Source: Gossypium raimondii (lineage: Eukaryota; Streptophyta; Magnoliopsida; Malvales; Malvaceae). Taken from it: a stretch of 64,000 bases of DNA. The DNA lies in NCBI RefSeq assembly GCF_025698545.1, contig NC_068575.1:53949980-54013979 (forward strand), given 5' to 3'. Position numbers and translations under genes: made by a program. Shown piece by piece: positions 1 to 55,208 of this stretch (position 1 is its first letter; each line of letters opens with the position of its first letter). Below the pieces are notes generated by a model, which saw nothing but the letters and a program-made list of their open reading frames with translations, did no database searches and was not told the origin of the DNA.

Positions 1-410
1 CGATTCGTTTTAGTGATACTGGATAAGGGATCGCCATACGTACTAGTGGAATCTGCAACCCCGTGCTTTGATGTATTCACCGTAGGGGTTTCTCCTTCAT
101 GTTGAATTCGAGCCTTAGAAGATTGAGAAAAATAACCAGAGCCTGGGAAATTCTTTTTAGGTATCTTCGACGACAAACCTCGAATCAGATTTTGATCATT
201 CTCCCATGCGTGCTCCACGAAATTTGGATCACACCTGCATTAGAATTTAGGAACCTTCATTAATAACCTAAAGAAGAAAACTGTCAGAAGAAACACCTTG
301 AAAATACATTGTTATAGCTTGAAATATATATATACATACATGGATGATAAATTAGGGAAGGGAGTTGTGATCCTGCGAGGGATTGATTCAGGGGTCGGTT
401 TTTCTGCCAT
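1..410 (-). CDS. 5' end of an unidentified gene, possibly PIF/PIL-type bHLH (partial)
   Basis: Two exons join in frame on the minus strand: exon 1 at 410-340 (ATG at 410, donor gtatgt) and exon 2 from 234 (acceptor gcag) to the window edge. The split codon AT|G is restored exactly and the joined frame stays open for about 100 residues, so this is a real gene start. The protein begins MAEKPTPESIPRRI and holds the segment FVEHAWENDQNLIRG near residues 27-41. That segment loosely resembles the active-phytochrome-binding motif of PIF factors (E-L-x-W-x-N-G-Q) followed by SSK/SSR. The Arabidopsis neighbour of ASY3 and IAA20 is PIL1, which fits the position. The bHLH domain would lie outside the window, so the family name is a hypothesis; the exon structure is much surer. 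Confidence 0.5.
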
Positions 411-7137: not shown

Positions 7138-7447
7138 GAGTGGGAATTAAATTGAATAGTTGATATGAATTAATATTTGAATTGTTTGTTGATTGAAAGC
7201 GGGAAATGAATTTGAATCGAATTGTGAATAGTATTAAATTGTATGAAAATGTATTGAGTTGTGAAAATGTGTGACTTTGTGAAATAATTATTGATTGAAA
7301 GGTGGAAAAATGATTGAATTGAAAATGTGAGGAATTGTGATTGAATTGAGAATATATGTGATTTAAATACCCTATTAACTAGTCGGGCTGAGTCGGATAT
7401 AGTTGGCATGCCATAGGATTGGAAGAGTTCAGGATACTTGACCTCGA

Positions 7448-7585
7448 GTCGATGAGACACTGGTGTCACAATATTTCTTCGGATAGATTCGATGAGGTAC
7501 TGGTACCAACTTTCTTGACTTGGCCGATGAGACACTGGGTGTCAACTATTGCTTCGAACTATCCGATGAGGCACTGGATGCCATT
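7448..7585 (+). repeat. Four short repeats CGATGAGRYACTGG
   Basis: Copies begin near 7449, 7490, 7526 and 7562. Each reads CGATGAG followed by ACACTGG, GTACTGG or GCACTGG and then a TGTCA/TACCA/TGCCA-type end. Spacing is about 36-41 bp. They lie in the middle of the solo LTR. Confidence 0.8.
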
Positions 7586-16158: not shown

Positions 16159-19100
16159 TTAGCATATACCGTTCAAGCACTCAGCTATTACATGTTTCAG
16201 CTGGAGCATCTTTTCCCTCGCCGACTGCATTAAATCAGGACGATAAACATGTATGTTATTCAGGGTATAAAACATTCAGTTATAAAACACAAATGAAGAA
16301 TTTGAGTGCTAAAAATGAATGGTCTATGAAGAATATCCCAAGTATGAGGACTCAGCAGAAAGTGGGTAGCAACTGATAGATTCCAGCATAAACTTGTTAA
16401 CCATCAGTACTTAGTGATGAAACTCCATATAAAAGCGTGCTGTATACCCAAGAGCATAGATTACCAGGCCCACACAAATCTTACAGTCTAGTGGCGCCCA
16501 TTTAATATATCTAAACCTACTCGCCAAGGTTTGGTAACCGTATCACCATATTTCCAGAACCAAGCATTTGGGCAGTGGGTGCCCAACGTAATATGTGGAT
16601 TACACATGTGCCTGAATTGTGGAAAAGCTAGCGCTAATATAAACAGAAACAAAAAACTTGCCTCACGGACAGCTTTGATTCTTTTTTCAGCATTACTGAG
16701 TTTGATTTTAGCTGTTTCTTCCGCATGCATGAGAAGCTTCTGGTGTGACACTTCTGTAATATGACTATACATCAGGCATTCAAAATGCACAATATTGTTT
16801 AATCATAATACTATCTATATATATGCACTAAAGACTGTCAAACTCAAACATAATTCTATGACTATACATCGAATTCTAATTTCAAATGAACTGTTAGCTG
16901 CTTCTAAATCTAAGTAAGCGGTTTAATGTTGCAGTGCAGCCAGTTTTTAAAATGTTACAGCCTGCAATAAATAATTCTAAAATATGAGAATATGGCGGTG
17001 AAATTCATAAATACTATATTCCTGAATGCAACCACTAATGCTGAGTTTTCGAAACGTAAGTGTTAATGGGACCTAGAACACCATGGTCTTTATTAATCCT
17101 TTAGACCAATGTTCATAATTGAGATGCATCGCAATACCCTAGATGAGGTCATATCCAAGAAACACTGAAATAAAAGTAATTTATGTAAAAACGAAATAGC
17201 CATGCATTAAGAATCAATCAATATCCCAATGAATCCCAGATGTCCCAAGAAATATCCCACATAAAATTACTTCATAACCACCAACGAAAAGTTCAATGGA
17301 AATAGCTTCACCACCAGGAGTCAGTGGCAAGGAAAGCATGCTGTCTTGTAATGGGGCAAATGGAGTCACATTTTTGCTTAAGCAAAAAGGAAACATCTAC
17401 AAAAACAATATGCAATAACGCAGTCATAGTTAAGGAATTTATTCAAAATAATTAAAAGTTGTCATACTTTGTTTCTTCATGATTCCCTTTAGTTCATTTT
17501 GGTGAGCTTCCATCCCTTCAAGGATACTACTGCAATCCAACAGATGACGATGAATATCCTCCTTGAACTTTTCAAGTATCAGCTTCAATAGTTCTTGTTG
17601 CTCTGTGAGAAAATAAAGCAAATCAAAAAGAAAATCATCAATGCCTCCTTGACAGTTAAATTTACTAAGATAAATATAAAATAAGAGAATCCATAAGACC
17701 GATAGCACTCCTGTCTGAAGGTTATTATAATACAAGTGCAAATGAAAAGAAAAGAAAGGTCAAACTGTGTTAGCACGGATACACTAGCATCACTTGCTTT
17801 CCACCATATACCAGTAATCATGTTTCTCACAGAAAGTAGGATCCCCATACATGCCTTTTGGTAAATGCATGTGCGTTCTCAATAAAAACATGACTGCATG
17901 TTAATAGCATGCCTCTGATACAAAACCTTGTATGTCATGCTTAATCCATTGGCACATATGTGTGCTACCAAAGTAGACATTCAAACACCAAGGCTAAATG
18001 TAGCTCATTGTGCCAGACCAGTGAACTAAAAGTAGAAAGGCACGTATTTGGGGCTCTCAATCTGTAACATCGAGATTGGTAAAATAAACAAATAGTTTAG
18101 TTCATGATACATATAAGAACTTTTTCAATACAAATAGGAGCCAAGGGAATCTTATTAAGGTCAATCAAGCTAATTAGTTAATAAAAAAAATGTCACCTTG
18201 CAATCTTGTTTCCAGGCGTTTCCTTTTTGTTTTACTGAGACTAGTCAATTTCCCTCTGAAAGATTATGAAAAACAAAGCTTAAGTATCAAAATGTTGGGT
18301 AAGCAAAGCTTTCAGCTTTAAATACATACACATCAGATTCAATCTGAGCCTCAGCATTCAGCAACATTGACTTCATCTTCTCAGAAATGGACATCAAAAT
18401 TTCAGTGGATTTCTTTGTAGTAGATGAGTCTATTTTGCGTTTAAATGTTTCTAAAGCCAAAGGTAACAATGTAATAGCCCTGAAACATTACCAAGCAAAA
18501 GTCAACTCAATCAAGAAGATGGTCCACATATACTAAAAGCAGGTATTACTTAATCTTTGTTTAGATATAAATGAGGACCTTGTCAATTCATCTTCTTGGT
18601 CTTGTTCCAAGTGTTCCTGGAACCAATAGCTTTCTCCAATTCCTCCCCCTTCTGAAGAAAAATAGAGAAGAACTACTTTAGAAAGAAAGCTATGGGTAGG
18701 TAAGAAGAGCAGTAGATGTTCAAATGTTAAGAAGTTGTGCCTTTTGGGGAGGATGAGGTGGGACTGAATTGACTAAGTTTGACATCTTCATTTCGAAGCC
18801 GTTTGATTGGGCAATGCACGAAATTTGGTTTGTCAGAAATAACAGTCTCTGGTGAGATCAGATTTTCTCTGTGACCTTGACAACATCATCGGATAAATAA
18901 TCAAAGGAGTATCCATTAAGAAGGAGAATTTAGAAATCAGAAAAGAAGAATCTATGCTGATGCATACACCGTACACAATGAACAGTGGGTTGAGCATGTG
19001 AAGTTAATTAAGCATGTATATTGAGAAACACAGCCAAGTAGCCTAAGAAAACTTGGAGCAATTATGGGACAGGTTACCAAAAATTCTTCTCCAAAGGATA

Positions 19101-22006
19101 AGTTACCATGAATTTAATAGTTTAATCGTTCATGGCACGATATTAAAATAACTAACAGCAATCCCAAAGGTTAAGTAGTTTTATGATATGATTTTTGCTC
19201 TAAACAGTTTCCTTAGAGAGAATACAAACGTTCAATTATAAAGACATATGCAGAGGGTGTGGTATCAAGAAAGAGGCCAAAATTGAACTGCAACTTTCCA
19301 ATCTTTCTAATTATGGAAAATGCAACAACTGATAATGAATCAGTCAGCAGTAATAAATCGGGTAGAATGTCTAGCATGTGAGCCAGAAGGGCACATATGA
19401 ACTCTTCTCGTCCAATTAATTTATTATTTAGAAGTAATTACCGGTAAGTCATATCCCAAATGGAGTTCCCTAATAAATGTTAGGAGAAATACATATATTG
19501 TGTTTCAGAGGAGCATTTTATATACTTACAATCATAGTTTTTAATAATGGGTGATCCTTCTTCAAAGTTCCCTGACCACTGCTGTTCTGATGTCGATGAT
19601 GATTCAGAATGCTCATTTACTGCATCAATTGTTTCCTTACCAGGCATTGGCTCCCTGAGGGAAGAATTAGTATACTTCACTGTATCTTCCTGGAACTCAA
19701 TAAGGAAGCACAAACTCAAGTCTATATATATAAATTCAACTCCCATATCAGAATCCTGAAAGATTAGTTAAGGATACAGGTGACTGAGCTTCTGCATTGG
19801 ATTTAGTGCTAAAAGGTCCAGAAGTTTTGAAAGTCCTGAAGCTCCTAAAATTTCCAATGGTAAGTCCTCTCTCAAAGGGTACAGGACTGCAAGTACCTTG
19901 CTCTATCTCAACAGTTTTTGGTGTTGGGCTCGCAGAAGTATTTAGAATAGGTGTTATGAATCCAAAAGTTGGACTTTGGAAATCATCTTGTGTTTGTACA
20001 AAATTCCTCAAGGATGTATTTCCCTTATCTTCTTGTTTATCCCCTTTTTCTGGTGATGGTGGATTGTCAAAATTACTCTGCCGGTGTGTCTCATTGGTCA
20101 ATGGAGAATGAAAAGTGTCCTTTTCTTGAACCTTCTCAAAGTTTTCCCTCCCCTTCTCACTATAGGAGTCAGGAAGGCTTTCGATCTTATTACCAAGTAT
20201 AGAAGTCTTCTCTGCAGGAAGTGGAGTTTCACTCCTACATGTTGTTTGCTTAATCTCATCTGCATTGTTTTCTTCAGGAAAACAGAACTGATGTGGATCA
20301 ATTTTAGAACTTTTCTTCTCAGTTCCCTTTTTCTGGGGCAACAATGAACCACCATTGACAGTACCAGCTAGCTTTGCAGGCGGTGGAGTTTCAGTCCTAT
20401 ATGTTGTTTGCTTAATCTCATCTGCAGCGTTTTCTTCAGGAAAACAGACCTGGTGTGGATCAATTTTAGAACTTTTCTTTGCAGGTTTTCTTTTCCGGGG
20501 CAACAATGAACCACCATTGACAGTACCATCTAGCTTTGCAGATCTTCCTTCACCAAAAGAGAAGATGTTATCTCCATGTTTCTGCTTGGAGGATAACCCA
20601 ATTTTAGTGTTGGCAAACTTCACTTTTGCGGGAGATCGCTTTTGGATCAAGGGACAGGTTACTGGCCTCTTAACAGTCTTATTAGGATTGTCTGAAACAA
20701 TTGCTACAGTAACTGAATTTTGTCTCGGCTTTACAGCTGTGTCCACCACATGATCAGCACTTCTCTCTTGTTTTGAATTATTGGCAGTGACCTTATGAGA
20801 CTGTAAACTAGATTGCAGACTTTTTGGTGAAGAAACAGTGCCAAACAGCTCCTGCAGCTTCTGTTTCAAAGTTTCAGTTTGTATGTTTTGAGTTTTACCT
20901 GCCTTGTGCTTTAACTCCACTTTACCTTTCGATGCATTTGCAAAATTTAACTCCTCCACCCTCTGTGAGTTGCCATCCTTCCAGACTTTCCTTTGGTAGG
21001 CAAAGCCATTAATGAGGCCAAATTTATTCTGCTTGCTACCAACATTATGTGCATTAAAGTTTTGGTTTGGAGAACAAGGAGCTGAATATGTTTCTGGCAC
21101 ATCCTCCGCTGTATTAAGTTTTGTCTGTCTTGGGTTGGAAGATTCTTCCCGTAAAGAGGCAGTCTCTGGAGCAAGAGCCTTTCTATGCAAGGATCTGGGA
21201 GTAATCCATGGAGATTTCACCTGCCCAGCATCTTCAGTTTGCTTCCCCTCAGAAGTTGTGACAGCGTCCCCTTTGTTTTTTCCCTCTAAGGAAATTCCAA
21301 TGCTAGGTTTGATTCTTTCTGCATTCGCCCGTTTATCCTGATCTTCCTTGGTGCATCCAGGTTTTCTCTTAGCTAAATAATCTACCATAACTCCTATCGA
21401 AATCTTTCTAGATTGGCTGGATGGATGAAAATTGCTGCCAAAACTTCGACAGTCACTCATCTGATCCTGAAAGGGAAAAAAGTTGCTAGGCATTAGACAC
21501 TAACTTTCTTGCAGCAGTTATTGGAGTTGCTGTACTGGAATCTTAATGCAGTAACAAGAATACCAGTTCACTGTTATAAATTTTGCTCTATAAACTATAA
21601 ATTAAACCAATTAAAATTAAAATAGTATTCAAAAGTGTCAAAATGAAGTAACTTAGACATTCCAGGAAAACAAGACCTACAAACTGCAATAACTGGAAAA
21701 TAATCTACTCATGAAAAACAATGCACGTAATTGAAAAGAACAGCAGAACTAATTAAGTACTATTTAAGTACCATCATGTACTATTTAAAGAAAATAATAG
21801 ATATTCTAAAACTAACATGTTAATCCAATAAAACTTATGATAAGCAGGCCCTCTAGCAACAAAAACTGCAAATCTGTAAGTTATTGAGTACAAACCATTG
21901 GAGCAAGAAAGAGGCGAGATGGTTCAATAAAAGGAAAATGAAGCTTAAGAAACTGAAACTTTTTCCTACTTACTTCTCGTAAGCTTTGCCTCACGTCTAC
22001 TGCCAT
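16159..22006 (-). CDS. ASY3: Meiotic chromosome axis protein ASY3 (ASYNAPTIC 3)
   Basis: Ten coding exons can be joined into about 863 codons: 22006-21974, ~21466-19778, 19689-19530, 18875-~18741, 18651-18579, 18479-18330, 18255-18197, 17602-17468, 16753-16662 and 16224-16159. All phases agree. The start MAVDVRQSLRE splices to DQMSDCRSFGSNFHPSSQS, then KISIGVMVDYLAKRKPG, the conserved N-terminal block of plant ASY3. The large central exon is basic, serine-rich and probably disordered. The last exons form a coiled coil (ALETFKRKIDSSTTKK ... MLQLKHVIAECL). ASY3 is a lateral-element protein that works with ASY1 for synapsis and crossover formation. The last intron begins GC (GAG|GCAAGT), and the fourth exon's donor is uncertain (possibly also GC). 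The central exon has a 162-bp in-frame tandem repeat. The short frame at 17396-17214 is intronic. Confidence 0.88.
16656..16661 (-). other. ASY3: GC-type 5' splice site of the last ASY3 intron
   Basis: The penultimate exon ends KAVRE with GAG, followed by GCAAGT, the canonical GC-donor consensus. The last exon begins after GCAG with TCG GCG AGG (SARE). No GT donor gives the conserved KAVRESAREKMLQL reading, so this is a GC-AG intron of about 440 bp. Confidence 0.8.
20214..20537 (-). repeat. ASY3: 162-bp in-frame tandem duplication in the ASY3 central exon
   Basis: Units 20214-20375 and 20376-20537 each encode 54 residues that share AKL-GTVNGGSLLP, KKSSKIDPHQ-CFPEEN and ADEIKQTT-R-ETP. Their similarity suggests a fairly recent duplication that lengthened the disordered region without breaking the frame. 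Confidence 0.95.
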
Positions 22007-23176
22007 TCTCACAATTTTCTCTTGAAATGCACAATTCAGACACTGCTACTAGAAGCAACTTGTAGGGTGAGCAATTGAGAAAATACAAATTTCAAATTCA
22101 TGGTTCAACTCCGTTCGAGATATAATCTTAGGAGATCTCTCTATTTCCTCGTGAGATGCCAAGCTTTTAGCTGTTTTTTCTCTGATTTTGTTCTCTCCCT
22201 CCAACCAAACAAACCCTAGAGCAAAGGAAGAAGCACCAAATCATCAGGTCTCAAAGGAAATCATAAAAAAAATATATAGATATTTAACTCAAAATCGATC
22301 ATCCCATACTACAAGAAAACCAGAAAAAATATACAACGCGAATGATTCAACTCTAATTGTTCACAATCACAATAAAAAATCATGAACAGTAAAACTAGAA
22401 GAAAAGAAAAATCAACAGCATAAATTTGAATCAAAACAGTATAAGAAAGATTAAAAAAAAAGTATGGGGTAAAATCAAGGAAAATGGTGAAAGTCATAAA
22501 CCGAAAAAAAAATGAGAGATCACCGCCATAGATTCACAACATAATTAAATTTAGATCCAAAAGAAAACGTGAAATAACATTTAGAAGGATATCCGATCCG
22601 AGAATAATTGAAATTGAGAGAGATGTAATTTCTAACGGCTCACTTTTCAGCGGATAATTAAAGTGCGCTGGATTTTCGATTTTGCTCGGCGACTTTGAAC
22701 GACAGTTGAAAGAAGCGAAGAGAAAAGTGGACTGGCAGAGTAATACTCGTAGGGTGAGAGGGGGGAAAATGGTCAGTTTTCGAGTAAATTTCTGCAAATG
22801 AGGAAAAGAAGCGGGAAAAGGGAAATCTATGTCTTGTTGTGAGCTTCTTGGAACTGGAAACGCCAAAATTGCAACGTATTGGAAAGTATTATCGTATGCG
22901 TGGTGCGTAATGCGCATGTTTCTGAGGCCAGTCAATTGTCTAGACTGTCCCTGTAATCCTTTTCTTATTACAACCGAGGTTTAGATGCCCAACGGATGAT
23001 GGGGCGGCCCACCTAACAGATTTCATCCCCTCCGTGGAAATCTGTTATATTATCATAACAAAATTCCAATTTATCATCCTATTCTTTTATTTCCTTCAAA
23101 TTTTGCATTGTATTCTAATTTATCTCCGCAAATGGGATTACTGAATACCGACACAAAATATCAAGATTCAGAATTA
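22007..23176. promoter_or_regulatory. Upstream region of ASY3 (5' UTR and promoter), otherwise non-coding
   Basis: About 1.2 kb lies upstream of the ASY3 ATG. An open minus-strand frame at 22935-22534 has no family resemblance. The transcription start probably lies near 22200-22900, but no clear TATA box was fixed. Confidence 0.4.
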
Positions 23177-23190
23177 AATTTTACGTTGAT

Positions 23191-23647
23191 TTTTTTTTTC
23201 TTTTTTGGCCAGAAAGAATCAGAATTTATTGATCATCAAACATCAACGGTACACTACACAGTATTGGAAAATTACCAAGAGAAAACAACACGCAGTAACA
23301 GACTAAACTCTCACCACAACCAAGTACACTAGAGAAAGACAACAAGCTTCTCCTATACCAAAGAATCAAACATTCTCGGGAGGCGCCGGTAAACCATCCT
23401 TATCAAGAATGAAGACCAAATTCCCACTGTTATCAATACACATATCCTTTTTATACCTGGATGCAATCCAGTCTGCAGCCTGGTTAGTACTCCTGCGTAC
23501 AAAACTCAATTTACACTACTGAAAACTTGTCTTTAACCGTCAATCTTATATACAATTGGTGCAAGCCTCCATTTCTTCCTAACTTTCCAACTACTCATTT
23601 CTTCATACGTTGATGTTTTATTTAATCGAGTTTATATTAAAGAAGCC
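23191..23647 (-). mobile_element. 5'-truncated LINE copy with poly-A tail and 14-bp target duplication
   Basis: On the minus strand the insert ends with AATAAA and an A-rich tail (T-run at 23191-23215). It is flanked by AATTTTACGTTGAT (23177-23190) and AATTTTACATTGAT (23648-23661), 13 of 14 identical, as target-primed insertion gives. Its only coding part is the RNase H C-terminus STNQAADWIASRYKKDM through DKDGLPAPPENV with a stop near 23370. This open end suggests a fairly young copy. Confidence 0.85.
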
Positions 23648-23661
23648 AATTTTACATTGAT

Positions 23662-24645
23662 ATCTGTATTGGTTTGTAAATTTTGTTTCTTGAAAAAGCG
23701 TCATAATAATTAGATTTGAGTAGTGCTGGAAACTCACATAATAATTTAATTTGGGTGTAATTGTTTATAATTATACTTTTCAATTCTTAAGAAGAAGGAT
23801 GAGAATTAAAGTAATTAACAGCTAACTGCATTCAAAACTAATTTTAAAAATTATTTTATGCAAGTTATAAAATTATATTATAAGTATAAACACATATAAG
23901 TGTTTAGAATGGTTATAGCAAAAATATATATATTATAAAAATAATTTGTGTATTTATAAAATTATAACAAAAATATATATTATTTAAATTCTAAAAAATT
24001 CTAAAGTTATGGTCAAAAATTTGTTTTTTAATTGTTATAAAAATGTTATAATATATTTATTTATAAAAGTTATTATCAAGTATGGACATAATTTATTTAT
24101 GTATCCTTGTTATATATTATAATTATATATATATACTTATTCATAAAAGATATTATAGTTTTTATCATAATTTATTTATAAAAATAATTTTCTAAAATTA
24201 TGACAAAAATTATATTATTTATAATAAGTGTTATGAAAGTTTATAAAGGTTATATATATTATAAATTTTATATTTTTAATTTTATTTACGTATTATAAAA
24301 AGGCATATAACTTAATATAAGTGTTTTTCCAAATTAAATTTATATAAGTTTTTATAATTAAAGCTGCAAACTACTTGAACTGTTAACTCAAATATTATAA
24401 GGTCGATGTTGATTATGCAAATAGAAAATGTTTTCTTATACCGTATGTGGGGTATGATACTATTTGAGATAATGGTGCCAAGCAGGAACACCATAAACAA
24501 CTCGTAAATTCTTTAATTTAAAACATTCAAGACTTTAAAATGTGGTTGAAAATATATTTTTCGTTCTAGGAAAATATTTCTCGTATTAACAACTTTACCT
24601 TAATATAACATGAAAAAATGTTAAATTATACTAGCATGTTGCATA
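23662..24645. other. Very AT-rich intergenic spacer
   Basis: There are many short repeats of ATTATAAAAATA and TTATTTATAAAA type and no open frame of interest. No defined element ends were found. Confidence 0.6.
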
Positions 24646-24972
24646 TTTCATAATTTTGGTAGATAAGAATCTCGTAAAAACTTCTTTCGAGAAATAGGTT
24701 AGACCAAGCCACTTCTCAAGAACAATAGCTAAGGGATCTACTACTACCACTTGGATCTGGAACCTACATGTTGATCCTCACGATTTCGATAGCCATACCA
24801 GTGATTTGGAGGAGATCTCTCGCAAAATATTTAGTGCCCATTTTGGTTAACTCTCCATCATCTTTCTTTGGCTAAGCAACATGTATTTCCACAATGCTTA
24901 TTTTTCCAGTTATGAAGCATGGCTTAATGATCCTACTCACATTGGACCTAGAGCTTAGGTGGTTTGGCCAAC
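24646..24972 (+). pseudogene. Plastid insert (NUPT): psaA 5' part
   Basis: The plus-strand frame reads as decayed PsaA of photosystem [74 protein letters not shown] and VVWP. These match residues of about 10-135 of chloroplast PsaA in order. Three in-frame stops (FEK*, HFG*, RA*) and several replacements show it is a dead nuclear copy. Similarity ends abruptly after VVWP. The intact gene is plastid-encoded. Confidence 0.92.
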
Positions 24973-25641
24973 TTCAATTATAAGTGGAATTGAGATGATC
25001 TATACTTAGCACATGGAAGAAGGAAATCTTGATGATCTTAATGATGCAGATTCAAATTTAGATAATGATAAACCCAGGCAATGACTAATAGATGATGATA
25101 GTAAGCTTATGTTAAATGCTAAGGAGGGAATAATCATATAGATATGTACCAAAACAATTAGATAAAATTGCATCTAATGTTTATTTTTCTTGTTATTTTA
25201 TTAGTATCATTTTATCAACTACTTTTTAGACTAATATAATGCATATGAGTATTTTATTTTAATTTTGTTACTTGCTTATAAAATATTTTTATCATGCTAA
25301 TAATTTTTATAATAAATAGTATTTTTAAACAATATAAATTATGTAACTATGTAATTACAATTTGTACTACCAAACATGACATAGAGAATTACAATGTAAT
25401 TACACCCTATCACTAAACATGTATAGGAAATTACAATTTTTCTAATTACTACTCTAAGAGTAGTAATTACGCTTTCATTCAATTACTCTGTGTTGTCCAA
25501 ACAATTTTAACTTTACTTTTCTTTTAGTGTAACTTTTGGTTTGTCTTGACTTATATCATTCGAGATATGATATACATGTCGACAGAAATTAAATTAAAAA
25601 AAATCTTTGATTTGTTTTATCTATAATGGTCATATTAGACT
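24973..25641. other. Intergenic, AT-rich
   Basis: This is the spacer between the psaA insert and the putative Pack-MULE. The string HMEEGNLDDLNDADSNLDND follows the plastid insert in an open frame of unknown origin (25012-25085). The 25345-25500 part has AATTAC-rich inverted segments that could be an old MITE. Confidence 0.45.
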
Positions 25642-25650
25642 AACAAAAAA

Positions 25651-27070
25651 AAAGTAAACTATCAAAATAGTCACATTTGTTTGCCTCAAATTACATTTTA
25701 GTCACTTATGTTTGAAATGTTACGTTTTAGTCACATCATCGGGTTGTAACGTTTTAGTCACTAAGTCGTTAATTGTTGTTAACAATGTAACGGTAAGTTG
25801 ACGTGGCACGTTAAATCATTATTTCAAATGAAAATTTTAGGTTAAATTATACAATTTGGTCCGTATATTTTTTCATTTTGAACAATTTAATTTTTTTTCC
25901 TTTTATGTTCTTTTAACTTTCTTTTTTTTTCTTCATTTTCCATTTTCTTCTGTTTCTCATTTTGTTTTCCTCCTTTCTCCATTTCTCTTAATGTAATTTT
26001 TCTATATTTTTCATTTGTTAAAACTAAACCCTATACTTTTATTTTTTGAACAATTTAATTTTTTTTCTTATTATTTATATGATATCTATATAAACACTTG
26101 ATAACAGTGAGTTTTAACATCATTTTATTCTTCATTGTTGTTTTTTCCATCGATACTAATGTCCACCCTCACTGTAAGACTACTACGAAAGCACCCATTA
26201 CAACTATTGCCAACTTCAAAATAAAAACAAATTGACTAAGAGAAATCGTTTTGCATAAATTGGAAAAAGAAAACATAAAAAGCAAACAATACGACAATAA
26301 TGAAACCGAAAGAAACAGTAGCAGAAAAGGAAAAAGGAATTGATCGAAGAAATATGAATGACACATTTAAACCCTTCATTAAAATTAGCGGCTACTGCGA
26401 GGACACATTTAAGCACCGCCGCTGCCGCCATATCTGCCTCCACCACCATCGCCACCCTGCCTACATTCCCATGCTAAATGGCCTATCTCACCACACTTAT
26501 AACATCCTCCACCACTTCCACCGTATCCGCCTCTCCTTCCCCCTCCACCGATCTGCCGCCGCCGCCACTGTGTCTGAATTTGAAGGAGCAACTAACAGGG
26601 TTGCCGTTGGGGCCAGTAACCTCAACAGCCTTGGGGTGACCTTCAAAAGACTCGACAACGTACTCGACCTCTTCACCATCAGCAAGGCTACGGTAACCCT
26701 CAGAACGGATGTTTTAACAAATGGAAAACATAGAAAAACTATGTTAAAAGAAATAGAGAAGGGAGGAAAACAAAGGGAGAAGTAGAAGAGAATGGAAAAT
26801 TAAAAAAAGGAAAGTCAAAAGAACATAAAAGAATAAAATGCTCAAAAAAAATATAGGGACTAATTGTATAATATAACCTAAAAATTTCATTTGAAATTAT
26901 GATTTAACGTGTCACATCAATTTACCGTTATACCGTTAACGATAATTAACGGTTCAGTAACTAAAATGTTACAACACGATAATGTAAGTGACTAAAACGT
27001 AACATTTTAAACATAAGTGACTAAAATATAACTTGAGGCAAACGAGGGTGACTATTTTAATAGTTTACCA
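25651..27070. mobile_element. Putative Pack-MULE with ~230-bp terminal inverted repeats
   Basis: The left end (GTAAACTATCAAAATAGTCAC) and right end (GTGACTATTTTAATAGTTTACC) are inverted copies, and the similarity extends inward about 230 bp past a shared 'cgtggcacgttaaatcat' block. Flanks AACAAAAAA at 25642-25650 and 27071-27079 give a 9-bp duplication, though in low-complexity sequence. No transposase is present. The interior contains a fragment of a cold-shock/zinc-knuckle gene (minus strand), which makes it a Pack-MULE candidate. Confidence 0.75.
26160..26718 (-). pseudogene. Captured fragment of a cold-shock-domain / CCHC glycine-rich RNA-binding protein gene
   Basis: On the minus strand from 26717 the frame reads IRSEGYRSLADGEEVEYVVE then GHPKAVEVTGPNGN, which is the second half of a plant cold-shock domain. 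In a shifted frame a glycine-rich part with the knuckle [14 protein letters not shown] (CX2CX4HX4C) and further GGGG runs follows. This is the layout of GRP2/CSP-type RNA chaperones. The first half of the cold-shock domain is missing and the frame shifts between the parts, so it is not functional as that protein. Sequence 26160-26400 looks like its 3' UTR. Confidence 0.8.
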
Positions 27071-27079
27071 AACAAAAAA

Positions 27080-27950
27080 TGAGTTAATCAACATCGAGAG
27101 ACATTAAGTTCTTGAACATTTAAAGTATACAGAATGAATTTAAAACAATAAGAAAAAAAATGAAATTTATTGTATTGGATTCTTTCATGTTTCAATTTTG
27201 CTATATTTTCGATCAAATTCAATTGATAAATTTGTTTTTTAGTTTTTAGGTGGAAGGGTTACAAAGAAAGAAAAACTATAAAATGATCAAATTACACTAT
27301 ATGTAAATGTTTAGGGTTAATTTTTTAAAATTAAGACTAAATTTACATAATGCATAAATATTTAGAATTAAAATTATTGTAATACCAATTTTAAAACTGA
27401 CACATCGTGATTGTAAGAAAAGATAAAATTAAATAATTAAATTATATTTTATAAATTTTTATAAGTAAATAAGTAAAAAGAAATTTAGCAGAGTAAATAA
27501 TATAGTTTACCCTTGTATCAATTCATTTTCATAATATAATAACTAAAAATCATTTCATCACGAGAAATTTTCGTTTTATCATTTTAAACGAGGCAGGGGA
27601 GAGTAAAACATTTTGAAGTGCTTAACTCAAATTATGAAAGCTGGTCAGATCTGATTAACAAGGAAAATTGAAAGTTATGATCGATCTTAACGTCGACTCG
27701 AGCACCACCAAATTCAACTTCTGAAAAAATCATTAACAACCACAGGACAAATTCCATAATACGTACGCCGGTACGCACAGAATTTGACTGATTACCAGCT
27801 CAGAGGTGCGAGTAATCACACTCGATATTTCCTCTTGAAGATAACACAATCTCGCCAACCTCCCTACTTTCAACTTTCAATCGCTAGTTATTTTAATTCC
27901 AGCGCCTTTTTCTTCCCATCCCTCTCGCTCGCCTGGCCCCACCACCAATC
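27080..27950. promoter_or_regulatory. Upstream region of PPO1
   Basis: AT-rich spacer becomes less AT-rich near 27640-27950 just before the PPO1 start, where promoter and 5' UTR should lie. No gene is seen. Confidence 0.4.
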
Positions 27951-30900
27951 ATGACGGCTCTAATCGACCTTTCTCTTCTCCGTTCCTCGCCCTCCGTTTC
28001 CCCTTTCTCCATACCCCACCACCAGCATCCGCCCCGCTTTCGTAAACCTTTCAAGCTCCGATGCTCCCTCGCCGAGGGTCCCACGATTTCCTCATCTAAA
28101 ATCGACGGGGGAGAATCATCCATCGCGGATTGCGTCATCGTTGGAGGTGGTATCAGTGGACTTTGCATTGCTCAAGCTCTCGCCACCAAGCACCGTGACG
28201 TCGCTTCCAATGTGATTGTGACGGAGGCCAGAGACCGTGTTGGTGGCAACATCACTACCGTTGAGAGAGATGGATATCTGTGGGAAGAAGGCCCCAACAG
28301 TTTTCAGCCCTCCGATCCTATTCTAACCATGGCCGTAGGTTTCTCTTAACCTACATTTTCCCGAATTGCATTTTCGTAATTCTTTTCGTATTACTGTAAT
28401 TAATTATGCGATTTGTTTTATATTTTGCTGCTCAATCGCACTTCATTAAACCAGGAATTTCAGGTCACTAATTATGTTAGTGTCCATATGAATGTGTATG
28501 TGTGTTTATTGTTGTAGGTGGATAGTGGATTGAAGGACGATTTGGTTTTAGGTGACCCTAATGCACCGCGATTTGTACTATGGGAGGGAAAACTAAGGCC
28601 TGTGCCCTCCAAGCCAACCGACTTGCCGTTTTTTGATTTGATGAGCATTGCTGGAAAACTTAGGGCTGGGTTCGGGGCTATTGGCATTCGGCCTCCTCCT
28701 CCGGTTTGTCCACTTTACTTTTCTTATAAGCTTTTTTCTTTCATTTGGTTATGCATCAAAAGTATAACGTTGTATATGCATAATGTTTGTATATATTGAA
28801 GGTTCTCATATAGCAGAATTTTGACAAAGGTGACAGGGTTATGAAGAATCGGTGGAGGAGTTTGTGCGCCGTAATCTTGGTGCTGAGGTTTTTGAACGCT
28901 TTATTGAACCATTTTGTTCAGGTGATGATTGATATCTTTATTCTCTATTATTTATTCTTTTTTTCAAGTTTTTTCTTGTAGGAAACATTTGTTATTTAAT
29001 CACTTCTGCGCCGAGCGCCAATTATTATATTCTTTTCAGTCTAAATTACCTTGTCATCATGGCTTGTTAATTGTCCTTAATATCTACGGGCTCTACTGGT
29101 CCTTTCATATAAAAATATTTGGGACATTTCTCTGTTTTATTTGCATTGTTATCAGTTATCACATATATATTTGGGTTAGTTCCGTGGGGTCTTGTTTAGA
29201 TGCATGTTGATTCCATTCTTTTTATGTGTTCACTTATCTGTAAAGATGTACTTAATATTTTGTTTTCTTAAGACATTTTCAACCAATAAGTTATACCCTC
29301 AGTTTATTACTGGTACAATAGTGAACCACCTTCAATTTAGCATTTTCTGATCAAGAAGTTCTTGAACCTAGGACTGATATTTAAGGTCTTGTTTTCTTTA
29401 ACCACTTCTCAATTGTTATACTTGAAAAGTTGTTATTGCTGCAGGTGTTTATGCAGGGGATCCTTCAAAATTAAGCATGAAAGCAGCATTTGGAAGAGTA
29501 TGGAAGCTAGAAGAGATTGGTGGCAGCATCATTGGTGGCACTTTCAAGACAATCCAGGAGAGAAATAAGACACCTAAGCCACCCAGAGACCCGTAATTTT
29601 GAATATACTGATGCTTCTTTCGTGATATTTATTTCCATCACCCTGAATAGTTATCTTGCAGGCGTCTGCCAAAACCGAAGGGCCAAACAGTTGGATCTTT
29701 TAGGAAGGGACTTACCATGCTGCCCGAGGCAATTGCTAACAGGTGGCCTTGTCTCTATAATAGCTATAGCCTCTGTAGTGGTTCTAAATTGTCAATATGC
29801 TTTTATGCCCATCTTTACATTTCAGGAATGAGGGTCCTAATTAGTTGTCTTGAGTTGGCAGTTTGGGTAGCAATGTAAAATTATCTTGGAAGCTTTCCAG
29901 TATTACCAAATTGGGCAATGGAGGGTATAACTTGCAATTTGAAACACCTGAAGGAATGGTATCTCTTCAGAGTAGAAGTGTTGTAATGACCATTCCATCC
30001 CATGTTGCCAGTAACTTGTTGCATCCTCTCTCGGTATGTTTCATATCTTCCTACTCCTTGCTAGACAACTTTTTATAGATGCTATTAGCATCTAGCATAG
30101 AGGATTCACTCATTTATGTTGCAATGTCTAGGATGCTAAATTATTAAAAAGCAAGTTCGTCTGCCTCTATCTATATAGTTCTTCTCCTAAATTTGACAGA
30201 GCACACTCTTGGCCAGGCTTGGACTACTGAATTGGGCGTCTTTTATGTGGTGTGTCAGTATGCTGAATGATTGAAGATATTCTACTTTGTGCAAGTCCAC
30301 TTTCTTGAAAAATGTTCCATGTACTCTATGTTGTTTGTGGATCTGCTATACTTTCTTGGTATACTAGTAATGTGTATTCAATACCTAAAAGTAACTTTTC
30401 CCAACAAGGGAAAATGTCTGAAGGAAATTGTTCTCTAAAAGAGTTATTGAGGCCTTGTTCTTAACTAGTTTAGTTGACTTCAGAGTTTTACTATTATTTC
30501 TCTGATCCAGTTTTGTGTCCTCTTTGCAGGCTGCTGCTGCAGATGCATTATCCCAATTTTATTATCCTCCAGTTGCATCAGTCACAGTCTCCTATCCAAA
30601 AGAAGCCATTCGAAAAGAATGTTTGATTGATGGTGAACTTAAGGGGTTTGGCCAGTTGCACCCACGCAGCCAAGGAATCGAAACTTTAGGTAACTCCATT
30701 CTTCCTAAAGTAACATATCTAGTATCATACTGAATTTGTTTGCAGTAAAAGTTCGCTTTTAGAAATTTGATTGATTAACAAAACAACTTGCAGGGACGAT
30801 ATACAGTTCATCACTTTTCCCCAATCGAGCTCCATCTGGCAGGGTGTTGCTCTTGAACTACATAGGAGGAGCTACCAACACTGGAATTTTGTCCAAGGTA

Positions 30901-31477
30901 GACATCTTTTAAGATCTATAATTTGAGTTTTTGTTGAGGACAACACAATTTTGGATAAGGACAGAGATTGTGGTAGATGTAATCCCTCTAGAGGGTATTA
31001 AAGACCTGTATGATCATGGAATAATTACCCGGTCTGCCAGCAATCTTTAAATATAGGATGGTCAAGATTATTGAAGGTCCAAATTTTTTTCACTAACTAT
31101 GATTTGTCACATGAACCTACAAATAATGTTTTCCATGATTTTGCATGATACTTACTGATGCTGTATTTTTCCTGCAGACTGAAGGGGAACTTGTAGAAGC
31201 AGTTGATCGTGATTTGAGAAAAATGCTTATAAATCCTAATGCAAAGGATCCTCTTGTTTTGGGTGTAAGAGTATGGCCAAAAGCCATTCCACAGTTCTTG
31301 GTTGGTCATTTGGATCTCCTTGATAGTGCAAAAATGGCTCTCAGGGATTCTGGGTTTCATGGACTATTTCTTGGGGGCAACTATGTATCTGGTGTGGCAT
31401 TAGGTCGGTGTGTGGAAGGTGCTTACGAGGTTGCAGCTGAAGTGAAGGAATTCCTGTCACAATATGCATACAAATAA
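27951..31477 (+). CDS. PPO1: Protoporphyrinogen IX oxidase, chloroplast (PPO1/HEMG1)
   Basis: Nine exons join without frame conflict: 27951-28334, 28518-28703, 28837-28921, 29445-29592, 29662-29742, 29862-30033, 30530-30689, 30794-30897 and 31178-31477. They give 1620 nt and 539 residues, against 537 in Arabidopsis PPO1 as I recall it. Residues 1-45 are rich in S, P and basic residues, as in a chloroplast transit peptide. Next is the FAD-binding dinucleotide motif [17 protein letters not shown], then EARDRVGGN, then the PPOX core ([33 protein letters not shown]), ending [22 protein letters not shown]. The enzyme oxidises protoporphyrinogen IX to protoporphyrin IX with FAD and oxygen, the last step shared by haem and chlorophyll synthesis. 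All introns are GT-AG. The gene looks intact. Confidence 0.96.
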
Positions 31478-31925
31478 TATTGAAATTCTTGTCAGGCTGC
31501 AAATGTAGAAGTCAGTTATTGGATAGTATCTCTTTAGCTAAAAAATTGGGTAGGGTTTTTTTTGTTAGTTCCTTGACCACTTTTTGGGGTTTTCATTAGA
31601 ACTTCATATTTGTATATCATGTTGCAATATCATACTCGATAGCAGTGTTAATTTTCTCATCCCATGATCAGTACCGATACTAGGCATTTGAGGCATCACG
31701 TATCAAAACATTTCATCTTCCTAACATTCTCTTTTACCGTTGATCATACATGCTGTTTATCAAGGTTGCTCCTGTTCCTCTAGAAAGGGCTTGAGTTAGG
31801 GCTAATTGCTTTGATCAGTCAAGCTGACAGGTTCAATAGGTCATAATTGGTTCTTGAATAGCGGATTCTTGCTGCTGGTCTCTTCCGTTTCATGTAATCC
31901 TAACACCCAAGTCCCTTAATTGGGT
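31478..31925. other. PPO1 3' flank
   Basis: This contains the 3' untranslated region of PPO1 and ends at a TIR element. No other feature was recognised. Confidence 0.5.
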
Positions 31926-32947
31926 TTAAACAACAAAATGGTACGTAACTTGTACTAGTTTTTTCAAATTGGTACTTAAATTATTTTGGTCAAAACTGGT
32001 ATAAAATTATTCAACTGTTACTCATTTTACCTCAACTGTTAGTCCGGTTAGAAAATTTTTTTTATTACAACTTGTCACGTAGACTTTATTCATTTTACAG
32101 CATTTGTTTTAGTGTTGATTTTATCATATTTGCTTATATTTTTTTCTCATCAAACAATTTTTACCAAATTTTCTTACATTTTCTCATCTTCAAGCTTTAA
32201 CTACTTCTATCATCTTCAAGCTTCCGGTCCTCTTCGTTCTTCACCAGATTCTTTCCTTATACAATGAGGTAGAAAACCCAAAATGATCTTTAATTAAAGA
32301 GAACGCATAAAAAAGAAGAAGTCAAATCTTCACTTCCATAGAGATTCCTAAAAAAGAAGAAGCAGTTTTTGAATAATGAAAAAGTAATTGAGATCAATTT
32401 GTAGATTTGTTCAACTAAAATTTTTGGCTCGTTTTCTTCTTCTCTTTCTTTTCTTTGTTTGAGCACCAAAAGCATTGCTATTTCTTTTGAATCGATTCAT
32501 TATTGCTGTTTAACTCGATTCTTTTGAATAGATTCAAATGTCAATGCCATTTTAGTATCTAATCCTTTAATTCCATTAACATTTCAGTAACAAAAAAAAA
32601 AAAAACTTATAAAATGGAAACACCCCAAAACAAACGGTGAAGAAAGAAGAAGATTGAAAGTTTGAAGAAGGTAGAAGTAGTTGAAACTTGAAGATAATAA
32701 ATGATGGAAGCTTTGTACAATGAAGCAATCAATTTTTTGTTAGTTGTTTGGTTGATGAGAAAATGTAAGATAAAAATTATTTGACAATAAGAAAATATAA
32801 GAAAATTTGGTAATACGTGGCAAGTTGTGATTGATTAATTTTTTTTTTCTAATGGTGCTAACAGTTAGATAAAATAGGTAACAATCTAATAGTTTAGATA
32901 CTAATTTGAGAAAACTAATATAATTTAAGTATAATTTTGTTGTTTAA
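31926..32947. mobile_element. TIR element without coding capacity (~1.0 kb)
   Basis: The ends are TTAAACAACAAAAT and ATTTTGTTGTTTAA, a perfect 14-bp inverted pair. Similarity between the arms goes on for about 150 bp (e.g. AACTGTTA...TTAG, acttgccacgt). No target duplication was found, so the superfamily is unclear (MULE-like by arm length). The interior is non-coding. Confidence 0.7.
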
Positions 32948-34299
32948 TGTTTGTTCTTTTGGAAGCCGAATGAGGAGTCATTCTAAAATTATTGCCAAGA
33001 AGAACATGCCTTGTGTTTTATTTCTCACCCAAAGTTCCCTTCTGCATGGAAATTTCTAGTTAGGTTTTTAAGGAAAGCTTCATGTTTAGCCTGAGACTGG
33101 GCGGCAGATTTCTTTTTTTTTTCTTTTTATTTTTGGTCATCGCTCATGAAGCAAAGGCACCTAAACTTATTGACGCTTTAAAAACGGAGTAATAATTTCA
33201 AAATAAAAGTCATTGAAATTAAAAAATTATAGGGAAAAAACCAGGGAAGAAAAAGTTTTAGCGCAAACCCTAAAATGGGATAATGCCCTCACCCCGGCCT
33301 ATCCTTGACAATTTTTGTATTCTGAAATATAAAGCAATAGCGACAATACTTGATTAAAAAACCCCCCACAAATTAACTGTAAATGAGGAAAAAAGTTTTT
33401 TTAAATAATATTAGAAATTTTAAAATTCGAATTTAGATGTCACTATTTCGTTGGCATGTTAAAAAACCTTTAGGTTCTAACAGTAGTGTGTTTAAAGGGA
33501 CAGAAAACAAGTGCAGGGAACAGTAAAACAAAAGGTTTCCCATCCCATGGCCCTTCGAAGCTAACATGGATTTGGGCAAGAAATGGTGGGGGACATCAGC
33601 TTTTGCTTTTGGTGCAAGCCAATCTTTCTTGTTCCCCTTTTTCTTAGAGTTAATTATTAACGTGATAGATACACAACGATGATAACCAAACCTTTTGTTT
33701 TTAAGGTAAAACAAGAGTCCCCTTTCCACGTGGGGAAAAAGATTTTGTTTTAAAAAGAACAACAATTGGAGTTTGAATGCATAACTTCATCATGATATCT
33801 TTTAAATTCTGTTTTATGGAAAATATAAATAATAATTAAAATAATTATATAATAAATACTATTTTACCATATAAAATTACTAATATTTCAATTCAAATAT
33901 GGTTTATCAAAAGAAAAATCAAACATTTATGCTATGAGGTGGTGACTAAATATAAATGCGGAAGGCTATAAAATTACCCGTGTGTTGTGCATGAACCCTT
34001 GAACTTGCACACAAGAGAAGCAAACGCAAAGCAGAACCCGCACATGGAGCCTCCTTGAATTAAACTCCCAAGAAACAAAAAGTTAAAATCATGAGATAAG
34101 ACGTATACATGTCGGCTGCTCTGACGACATATCATCCCAACCATGGCCAGGAATATGAAAGAACTGCCTCTCTTGATTCTCTACCAATACTTACTACCAC
34201 TGTTTTCCATTATATATCCAGTATTTCCTTCTCTTTCTGGTTATTTAAACCAAAGGTGGCGGCTTTTGTTCTTCGGTCTTCGTTCCCACATCTCAGAAA
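32948..34299. promoter_or_regulatory. Spacer and upstream region of the Aux/IAA gene
   Basis: No gene is recognised. The frame at 33765-33433 has no family features. The 300 bp before 34300 should contain the Aux/IAA promoter and includes TGTCGG at 34110-34115. Confidence 0.45.
34110..34115 (+). promoter_or_regulatory. Possible auxin response element TGTCGG
   Basis: TGTCGG is the high-affinity variant of the ARF-binding TGTCNN site. It lies 185 bp before the Aux/IAA start codon. A single hexamer can occur by chance, so this is only suggestive. Confidence 0.3.
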
Positions 34300-35117
34300 A
34301 TGAGAAGGGCAATTAGTTATTGTTCATCTTCTATAGGGAGCAGCAACCACTTTGATTCCTCAAGCACTGCTACTGCTGCTTCTTCCTCCTCGCAGAGGGA
34401 CCATAACACCGATCTTAGCCTTGGTCTTAGCATTTCAACCTCTCCTCTTTATGCAAGGTGCGTGTTTAGTTATTTACTCACCATCATCTTCAAAAGAAAC
34501 ACTACCATTTGTTTTGGGTAAATTGGTACGTATACATGTATATCAGGAAGCAAAGATCGCCAATAAAGCCGCTGCTAAGGCTGGAGCTTGCCGAACAAGA
34601 TGAGTGCAACAGCGCTACTTTTTATGTCAAGGTTTACATGGAAGGAATTCCTATTGGTAGAAAAGTAGACCTGTTGGATCGCCGGAGTTACTGTGACCTG
34701 ATAAAAACTCTTGAACATATGTTTAATACAAACCTCATATGTTAAGTTTCATCTTTCTACTTCTTTTGTTTCCTTCGTTAAAAAGGCAACAGCTGTTTTT
34801 TCTTTTCCCCCTGAACAAAAGTTTTGGCAAATCCATGCAGGGGCTGAGGCTGAGGTGAATGGTGATCATTTCGAGGAATATCATGTACTAACATATGAAG
34901 ACAAGGAAGGGGATTGGATGATGGTTGGTGATGTTCCTTGGCAGTAAGTAAACAACATTTACATATGTCAAAATTCTGTTATATCTTATATATGGTGATG
35001 ATGGTCATTCCTTATAGTACACCACAGCTGAAGCTGTTCAATCTATGCATGTACTGTAGGATGTTCTTGTCAGTTGTGAGGAGATTGAAGATAAGTAGAT
35101 CAAGTGCTGAACTTTGA
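34300..35117 (+). CDS. IAA20-like: Aux/IAA protein without degron (IAA20/30/31 type)
   Basis: Four exons (34300-34457, 34547-34740, 34841-34943, 35060-35117) give 513 nt and 170 residues, with all phases matching. The N-terminal part is serine-rich with the EAR repression motif DLSLGLSIS near residue 39. The PB1 (domain III/IV) part follows: [34 protein letters not shown], then [20 protein letters not shown] and [11 protein letters not shown]. The domain II degron core (GWPPV) is absent, as in Arabidopsis IAA20, IAA30 and IAA31. Such proteins repress ARF-activated auxin genes but are long-lived because TIR1/AFB does not recognise them. Adjacency to ASY3 in Arabidopsis (At2g46980-At2g46990) favours the IAA20/30 lineage. 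Confidence 0.92.
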
Positions 35118-35851
35118 TAAAAAAATTGTTTTTCTTTTCTTTTTGGTGGAGTGAAAATCAATAGGAGATGCGTAGGCAGAAAATATATGGTGAGATATGT
35201 TTAGGGTTTTTTCTAAAAAAAAATGTAACATGGACATACTAGAATGATTGAGTAACAAGCACCAGTCTTGTCTTTTGGTTGCAAATCTTTTATTGGTGAT
35301 GGATTGTGATGTTTTAACTTAAGGAAAGCCTTTTAATATTCTTACCTATAAGTCTCTTGTGTACAATCTCTTCAATAGTATTTAGTATTTACAATAAAGT
35401 CTTCACTAGCTCAGTAGCTTGTTGTCCTTTGAATTGTCTTCTATTCCTCTCTCTTCAGCCCAATAGTCCACTTAGAAGGAATAGGCGAGTGAAGGCCTGG
35501 AAACTTTTAGTTCTTGAGCTGTGGCTGCACCAAATAAATTAGCTGATTCGAACGTCATTGTCAGTTTATGCTTTGACGTTTTCTTCTTATAACCATGCTA
35601 TTTGCCTGCATGTTTCAGCCTTGATCATTAACGTCGGATTTTAGAATAATCTATTCATAAAATCTCACAGAGAATCAACCCTAAAACAAAACAAAAAGAA
35701 AATTCCATTGAGAAAAACCCTTTGCTCTTCCGTCAGAATAAACATTTACTATTATTATGGAAATTACAATTGTATCACAAGGTCACAACAAACAAGCACT
35801 GCCCTGTTTTATTATACAAGAAGAAAACAGAGGTAGGGAACCCCATTTTTG
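35118..35851. other. Convergent spacer between Aux/IAA and chitinase
   Basis: The two genes point toward each other, so this holds both 3' UTRs. No additional gene is seen. Confidence 0.5.
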
Positions 35852-36781
35852 TTAAAACGGCTTTTGATTCGCACAGTCTAGGTTAGGCCCTGTATCAACT
35901 TTAAATAACTGAGCATATCTCTCAAAGAATCCAATTCTGTCATTTACACGTGCATCGTTGGGTATTCCACACTCCAACCCACCGTTGATTATGTTGGTTA
36001 CCAACCCATATCCCGCCGTCCGATTAGCTGCCAAGTCGGCTTCCGTCGGGACATATTTACCAACCATGACATCGTGGCAAGACGGCTTTGGGCTCTGCTC
36101 CGTCATCCAGAACCAAAGCCCGGTTTTGAATGCGATCAAGGAGTTGTTGGCTACTATTTCTGGGTTCCTTAGCCCGTCAAAACCCACTGCCTTCCCAGCT
36201 GGTCCATAATTGTAATTCCTGTTATCAATAACACCAATCTATTCAGTTAAACCTTGCCTTGGCTTAATAGCTTCCAATAAAACACACGCGCAGTGCGCAC
36301 ACAAAATGCAATATCATTACCAGGATAGTTGAATGGGGCCTCTTCCATGGTATGATTTGCCAGGGTAGCAAGGCCATTGTGTGTTGGTAGAGTCACAGTA
36401 GTTGCTTTGAGGGTTGATTTCCTCTTTGAAGCACAAGCCCCAAGCGTATGGTCCGTCAGGTGCGGTGGCCCATCCGCCGGTGGTCTCGTGGGATATTTGA
36501 GCAAGAAAAGCTGCAATCTCACGCTTTCGGGTAGCTATATCCCCTGTGTTGCCAAAGCTTGGAAAGCATTTCGCGGCTTGAATAAAGAAGGTGTAATTGT
36601 AAAAGTTTCTTGCAGGGCATGCATTATCATCCTTGTGTAGAAATATGGAATTAAACAGATTTTCACTAATCAAATAAGAGATGGACGGAGGGGCTCTTCG
36701 AGCTTCGACTCCATTTGAACCAAAGAATAGTATACTAAAGCAAAAGAGCAATGAGAAGGAAATAAGAGAAGAGGATTCCAT
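35852..36781 (-). CDS. Class II endochitinase, glycoside hydrolase family 19
   Basis: Two exons (36781-36321 and 36218-35852) join as TG|G to give 828 nt and 275 residues. The N-terminus [20 protein letters not shown] is a signal peptide ending near EA-RR. There is no hevein chitin-binding domain, which makes this class II. Catalytic-domain landmarks are [18 protein letters not shown] (general acid Glu in HET), [10 protein letters not shown] (second Glu region), [32 protein letters not shown] and [11 protein letters not shown], ending [12 protein letters not shown]. It hydrolyses beta-1,4-GlcNAc chains of fungal walls in the apoplast; no vacuolar C-terminal extension is present. It looks intact. 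The intron lies before W-N-Y-N-Y. The Arabidopsis neighbour of PPO1, At4g01700, is also a GH19 chitinase. Confidence 0.95.
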
Positions 36782-46381: not shown

Positions 46382-46768
46382 AACAATTCCATTATGTGAA
46401 TCAATGATTCCTATTGAAGGATTGAAGATAAGTCAACAGGGAGCCTGAATTCGTTTATGAACCAAAACAGGCTCAGAGAAAATTCTAAGCCGTGTTGCAT
46501 TGGGAAATGCCTTAAATGCCCTCGTAATTGTAGACTTTGTTCATTCGGTAGAGGACATTTCTGGCTTTACAGGCATTTACTTGGTCAATGGAAACAGTGT
46601 GATGCTGATGTAAGCTTAAATGAATATAAAGACGATTTGTCTTCTTGCAATCTGGTCACATCAAAACTATATTCTTTTAAGATTCTTTCAATAATTTATA
46701 CTTATAGTTGTAACCTTCCAATCACCATTTCAGGAACCATTTGGCAGAAATTAACCTACTATCAGATT
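46382..46768. promoter_or_regulatory. Upstream region of receptor kinase copy 1
   Basis: About 390 bp lie between the kinase start and the solo LTR. This is what remains of the native promoter; farther upstream is LTR sequence. Confidence 0.45.
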
Positions 46769-54765: not shown

Positions 54766-55208
54766 TAGAGGAGTGAGATGGTAAAGGAGGCAAGTGTAAG
54801 TAAGAATAGAAGGTAGTAGACACCTTGAAACCGAATAAAGGAAATTGAGATAATTCATCTCCACTTTTTTGGTGTGGAAGTTGGAAAGCATTGCAATTTC
54901 CTTGAGATTTGGGAGCTAGTTAAAAGTTGATGAATTATTAGTGGGGGCAGTCTAAAAAGAAATATTATCTTTCTTTAACTTTAATAAAGAAGTAGGGTAT
55001 GTAAACCTAAAAGATTATCTTTCTTTAACTTTAATAAAGGAGTATGGTTATTGCGTTCATATTGCAATTCTTTATTTTTTACATTTCTTTTAGTATACTC
55101 TACCCACAAATTCTCTTTTGGTAGAAAAGAATAGCATAAATCGATTACAAAAAAACACCCGTCTCAGAACATATGAAAGCTCTTCTTATCAATTAATAGA
55201 AGTTATTG
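54766..55208. promoter_or_regulatory. Upstream region of receptor kinase copy 2, with a 50-bp tandem repeat
   Basis: A 50-bp unit (ATTATCTTTCTTTAACTTTA...) is repeated at 54964 and 55014 with minor changes, about 200 bp before the preferred start codon. Sequence 55135-55208 is the tail of a LINE remnant interrupted by the next solo LTR. Confidence 0.55.

Follow-up and report, generated by a model that had tools for sequence, protein, structure and literature searches.

An ASY3-PPO1-IAA20-like-chitinase gene order in Gossypium raimondii supports an ancestral block divided by gene loss in Arabidopsis

In a 64,000-nucleotide stretch of Gossypium raimondii (C11:53949980-54013979), hereafter the window, genes for an ASY3-like meiotic axis protein, the plastid enzyme PPO1, an IAA20-like Aux/IAA protein and a GH19 chitinase follow one another in this order. 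We consider it very likely, with a probability of roughly 0.9, that the window represents an old eudicot block that was split by complementary loss in Arabidopsis and multiplied independently in the cotton lineage. In the Arabidopsis lineage the block would have been duplicated, with each of the two copies losing genes that the other retained; the block would also have been multiplied in the cotton lineage, leaving at least four copies, of which the one in the window would have kept the four-gene order while the others lost different genes. The first-pass annotation had proposed such an ancestral order, divided in Arabidopsis by reciprocal loss, and the proposal is supported by the locus numbers that excerpts of published gene lists give for poplar and grape, and by the further copies of the block in this genome.

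The genome searched comprises 750.8 Mb in 281 contigs, and the window was read together with 80 kb of left flank and 120 kb of right flank (264 kb in all). All gene models were built by hand, without transcripts. Within 16159-36781, Pfam matches and hand-joined models confirm the order first annotated, ASY3 (minus strand), PPO1 (plus), the degron-less IAA20-like gene (plus) and the chitinase (minus), with the earlier coordinates correct to within a few bases:

16159..21460, minus strand: ASY3-like meiotic axis protein gene (PF20435)
27951..31477, plus strand: PPO1 (plastid protoporphyrinogen oxidase), nine exons joined, 539-aa open frame
34300..35117, plus strand: IAA20-like Aux/IAA, four exons (170 aa), intron boundaries GT and AG
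35852..36781, minus strand: GH19 chitinase, two exons, ATG at 36781 and stop at 35852-35854

The four genes are consecutive at the level checked, other open reading frames of at least 90 aa between them lying outside the Pfam scan. The large exon of ASY3, in the open frame 19751-21499 (minus), matches PF20435 with 147.1 bits against a cut-off of 25.7; the ATG at 21460 and the C-terminal exons, which run to a stop ending at 16159, were read by eye. The first and last exons of PPO1 match PF01593, and beyond this domain the PPO1 label is one that we presume. The two chitinase exons match PF00182 with 176.0 and 176.5 bits over profile positions 1-117 and 117-232, giving a complete GH19 domain; Pfam reports no chitin-binding domain in this protein. 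The IAA20-like protein matches PF02309 (46.2 bits) at profile positions 106-150, and also at 178-199, so that the C-terminal Aux/IAA domain is present, and it has an N-terminal LxLxL motif. The GWPP degron core is absent from the model and from all six frames of 34001-35300. The earlier description of this gene as a degron-less Aux/IAA is thus borne out, and it belongs to the non-canonical IAA20/30/31 type.

Outside the four-gene core, the neighborhood contains the following features, for which positions below 1 or above 64 kb are in the flanks:

about -46.9 kb: R2R3-MYB (Pfam match)
1..230, minus strand: PIF-type bHLH gene (PIL1/PIF6-like), 5' part only, continuing into the left flank
43859..46432, minus strand: malectin-like receptor kinase (PF12819 95.8 bits, PF07714 168.3 bits)
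52261..54915, minus strand: second malectin-like receptor kinase (PF12819 76.6 bits, PF07714 146.2 bits)
73-76 kb: WRKY gene (Pfam match)
84-87 kb: SEC23-like gene (Pfam match)
88-89 kb: LCD-like (aminotransferase class V) gene (Pfam match)
110-116 kb: ABC transporter (named by eye only)
130-131 kb: acyltransferase (Pfam match)
136 kb: two-pore-type ion channel (Pfam match)
149-151 kb: NYN-domain protein (Pfam match)

Fragments of two further genes, one ABC1-like at -77 kb and the other at -66 kb, had no match in Pfam. The PIF-type gene reaches about 1.8 kb to the left of the window (open frame C11:53949229-53950209, minus strand). A 22-aa exon piece of its bHLH domain scores 20.2 bits with PF00010, just under the cut-off of 20.7, and we judged by eye that the gene carries an APB-like (active-phytochrome-binding) motif, the PIF label being presumed. 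The gene at the left edge, which had been suspected to be of the PIL1 type, is therefore PIF-type on this sub-threshold fragment and by eye. Each receptor kinase is one long open frame, and the chitinase and the WRKY gene flank the pair. A reverse transcriptase fragment, LINE-like by eye, occupies 8468-8968 (Pfam RVT_1, 38.6 bits). With the finer labels MYB55/61, WRKY47 and LCD, which are our assumption, the block here would read MYB55/61-like - PIF - ASY3 - PPO1 - IAA20-like - GH19 chitinase - (two receptor kinases) - WRKY47-like - SEC23-like - LCD-like - ABCB - acyltransferase - two-pore channel - NYN protein.

In Arabidopsis, we take At2g46980 (ASY3) to adjoin At2g46990 (IAA20) and At4g01690 (PPO1) to adjoin At4g01700 (a GH19 chitinase). 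The genes of the block presumably alternate between chromosome 4 (At4g01660-01840) and chromosomes 2 and 3 (At2g46970-47000, At3g62090-62200), the chromosome 2 copy having kept, on our assumption, PIL1, ASY3 and IAA20, and the chromosome 4 copy MYB55, PPO1, the chitinase and WRKY47. At2g46980 reportedly figures in the AtASY3 paper and At4g01690 in a PPO paper, while At4g01700 and At2g46990 are said to appear in chitinase and Aux/IAA papers, respectively. A literature search by co-mention of the Arabidopsis loci found no publication stating the interleaving seen here. ARPC5, which we take to be At4g01710, is absent from the block in this genome, its two matches lying at C11:61.65 Mb and C12:34.23 Mb.

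Cotton, poplar and grape are three lineages without the Arabidopsis duplications, and AtMYB61 is a close relative of MYB55. For the outgroups, published locus numbers served as a stand-in for gene order, in place of outgroup DNA. In the excerpts of the poplar literature, Potri.014G111200 is a MYB gene whose Arabidopsis counterpart is given as AtMYB61, AT1G09540 (PMC11672743), Potri.014G111400 is PtPIF10 (PMC10888771), and Potri.014G111700 and Potri.002G186400 are IAA20/31 and IAA20, respectively (PMC9072461). Potri.002G186500 is a chitinase (PMC6523340, PMC5867875) and Potri.002G186600 is WRKY47 (PMC4575021). By locus number, poplar chromosome 14 thus reads MYB - PIF - IAA20 and chromosome 2 reads IAA20 - chitinase - WRKY47, and both have GH28 genes near the block (Potri.014G112100, Potri.002G186900). 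The match of the poplar MYB in print to AtMYB61, and not to MYB55 of chromosome 4, counts against our reading (PMC11672743, as excerpted).

The grape excerpts give VIT_07s0005g02480 as MYB86 (PMC7838568), VIT_07s0005g02490 as CYP709B2 (PMC6988314), VIT_07s0005g02510 in the "TF" slot of a gibberellin pathway beside PIF3 (PMC10235105), and VIT_07s0005g02570 as WRKY47-like (PMC3386993, PMC11172563). One paper labels VIT_07s0005g02570 as MYB15 and not WRKY47 (PMC9435441), and another grape MYB50/55/86 gene is placed on chromosome 17 (PMC6988314). If the numbering proceeds by tens, five more numbered genes would fit between 02510 and 02570. A chromosome 1 gene, VIT_01s0010g03930, was considered as the WRKY47 of the block and rejected as WRKY75-like. 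On these excerpted locus numbers, genes presumed to be of the Arabidopsis chromosome 2 type and chromosome 4 type alternate in both poplar and grape. In the gene-order comparison with outgroups, which had been put forward as the check, the alternation in the two species is thus one of marker genes, with ASY3 and PPO1 unplaced in both and the chitinase and the Aux/IAA gene unplaced in grape. The two Arabidopsis pairs falling on unrelated grape chromosomes had been named as the outcome that would speak against the proposal; the grape markers of the block in these sources lie together on chromosome 7, the four focal genes themselves being unplaced there.

Provided that locus numbers in poplar and grape follow the order of the genes, the alternation recurs in three lineages without the Arabidopsis duplications, and an ancestral order followed by loss in Arabidopsis is the simplest account. 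The Arabidopsis split would then have taken this same route and would presumably date to the older (beta) of the two lineage-specific duplications. A later join, with PPO1 and the chitinase arriving in an ASY3-IAA20 region within the Malvaceae lineage and the interleaving being derived, appears quite improbable. It would leave unexplained the consecutive numbering of IAA20, chitinase and WRKY47 in the poplar excerpts, and it needs two separate insertions, one on either side of the IAA gene, at interleaved places. In addition, the Arabidopsis genes, as we take them to lie, pair in the way that loss predicts.

Evidence for an ancestral block also comes from within this genome. The MYB-IAA backbone is found at least four times, as collinear paralog segments on C11, C7, C12 and C8, with all four focal genes in the window copy only. 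For MYB, 59 matches had E values of at most 1e-10, with 114 of 213 candidates scored, and the four best loci are C11:53903000, C7:33001181, C8:41837597 and C12:38497852. Of 89 matches to PF02309 (all 127 candidates were scored), those starting at profile positions 96-106 were read in sequence to pick out the degron-less type. This leaves C11:53984581, C7:33096724 with 33098943, C8:41770854 and C12:38570973; matches starting at 110-114 (C8:17438278, C12:37155116, C11:54879837, C11:61354275) fall outside this count. Each of the four best MYB loci is 66-96 kb from the nearest degron-less Aux/IAA locus. By a rough, after-the-fact estimate, chance would bring each of three further MYB loci to within 100 kb of three given loci with a probability of about 1e-10 in all.

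The copies differ in what they retain. C7 has MYB, PIF, ASY3, two IAA copies and WRKY, with PIF, ASY3 and WRKY (33147932) in the same order and on the same strands as on C11, and genome-wide searches found neither PPO1 nor a GH19 chitinase there. Searches with ASY3 and with a PIF query from which the bHLH domain was left out gave no match in the block on C12 or C8. The losses are thus complementary, C7 being without PPO1 and GH19, and C12 and C8 being without ASY3 and PIF. Indeed, ASY3 gave five matches in the genome and the PIF query three, in both cases on C11 and C7 only; the sole PIF relative found with that query lies at C7:33070394-33071107 (47% and 56% identity in two pieces). For PPO1, the genome yielded no copy besides that in the window (all 9 matches lie on C11), and the 60 GH19 matches (46 candidates scored) include none on C7, C8 or C12.

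The markers seen on C8 are reversed in order and strand. WRKY matches, among those listed (150 of 259 candidates scored), include C11:54025294, C7:33147932 and C12:38625948. In the WRKY47-like genes at C11:54025294-54025467 and C7:33147932-33148105, the domain spans profile positions 2 to 59 in one open frame; several other WRKY loci among the matches listed end near profile position 40, and an intron loss in the WRKY47-like gene is possible. The SEC23-like gene has two matches, on C11 and C12 (38734255), that are 89% identical. GH28 matches lie beside the IAA-WRKY part on C12 (38698406) and C8 (41764941); on C11 the nearest among the matches listed, with 123 of 301 candidates scored, lies some 185 kb to the left of the window (53764613-53765448), in a different part of the block, and its match pattern differs. 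For LCD, the closest paralog (88%) is at 4.17 Mb on C8, 37.6 Mb from the C8 block. No P450 haem motif occurs in the 264 kb around the window, which means that CYP709B, present in the grape block, was not found here. None of the results for ARPC5, CYP709B, LCD, the poplar MYB or the IAA dS values given below contradicts an ancestral block; they indicate that even the window copy is incomplete.

The C7 copy was compared with the window over a 26-kb stretch, 33073992-33099999, assembled from pieces. Window positions 15968-22699 align with 33074064-33080181, and the DNA over ASY3 and its flanks is 68-79% identical between C11 and C7 in five pieces of more than 600 bases. Window positions 34224-35275 align with both C7 IAA copies, and two short pieces of 33584-33636 align at C7:33082609-33082736. 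In C7:33073992-33099999, tblastn with PPO1 and the chitinase as queries found nothing at E up to 1; this stretch stops about 0.3 kb past the second IAA copy, so that the chitinase position is covered by the genome-wide GH19 search only. On C7, then, there is no PPO1 between ASY3 and IAA, and the interval holds a 477-aa frame (33084733-33086163) that is retrotransposon-like by eye. A sister copy that has ASY3 and IAA, and in which PPO1 and chitinase were not found, speaks for the later join, and taken alone it also fits a gain on C11. Under ancestral order and loss, this genome repeats the process: ASY3 on C7 is now next to IAA, as we take it to be in Arabidopsis, and PPO1 is gone.

The two IAA20-like copies within C7:33096377-33099666 are in tandem, about 2.2 kb apart (6378-7456 and 8595-9667 of the sub-piece), and are identical over the 77 codons compared, probably as a result of recent duplication. 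For the ASY3 pair on C11 and C7, dS is 0.40 (NG86) or 0.36 (YN00) and dN is 0.21-0.22 (502 aligned codons, 319 of the residues identical). Set against presumed reference values, a dS of about 0.4 is more in keeping with duplication within the cotton lineage than with the ancient eudicot triplication. The IAA values, on 77-79 codons, are noisy, ranging from 0.7 to 2.6 with one pair without a value, and the C12 and C8 copies therefore cannot be dated from them. The large exon of ASY3 in the window also contains an internal repeat:

20213..20541, minus strand: 162-bp tandem duplication, in frame, in the ASY3 large exon (TRF, 2.0 copies, 90% matches)

The protein repeat has two units in the C11 ASY3 and a single unit in that of C7, and the duplication is therefore either a gain on C11 that postdates the separation of the two copies or one that C7 has lost.

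Two other explanations have to be weighed against this pattern. As the Aux/IAA, MYB, WRKY and GH19 families are all large, members of them might fall together by chance. However, it is the closest paralogs, not random family members, that recur together, and their recurrence at three sites besides the window places the four-gene grouping beyond chance. Non-coding DNA around and within ASY3 aligns as well, and with the four-copy pattern contradicting it, we give coincidence next to no weight. Alternatively, selection could hold the neighborhood together as a functional cluster, in keeping with the age of the order and with a window copy that has all four genes. This too is very improbable, since the supposed cluster is broken in Arabidopsis, as we take its gene order to be, and in the other three copies found here, and what is known of the families links them to unrelated processes (the meiotic axis, tetrapyrrole synthesis, auxin signalling and chitin breakdown).

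An ancestral block divided by loss provides one checkable case in which a single region accounts for two Arabidopsis neighborhoods, and the four sister copies in one genome make it possible to ask which genes go first after polyploidy. If correct, it also cautions against taking ASY3 and IAA20, or PPO1 and the chitinase, to be functionally linked because they adjoin in Arabidopsis. One may further ask whether the same partition was reached twice, since one Arabidopsis copy (presumably) and C7 both kept PIF, ASY3 and a degron-less Aux/IAA and lost PPO1 and the chitinase. Such a repeated outcome could mean that independent polyploids tend to lose the same genes of the block, PPO1 going back to single copy every time. 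We regard it as unlikely; the match is incomplete, C7 also keeping MYB and WRKY, which we place on the other copy in Arabidopsis.

The process described here is ordinary post-polyploid fractionation, a known kind of genome change. As in other cases, one region alternately matches two segments, each with a complementary subset of the genes, the Arabidopsis side being presumed. Nothing differs in kind; what is added are the independent losses on C7, C12 and C8. The polyploidy of the cotton lineage has reportedly been described as a decaploidization (PMC6324235), and the several copies of one block in the genome and the dS of about 0.4 for the ASY3 pair agree with such an event. At least four block copies were found here, not five, and it is among these four that the window copy alone holds ASY3, PPO1, the IAA20-like gene and the chitinase together.
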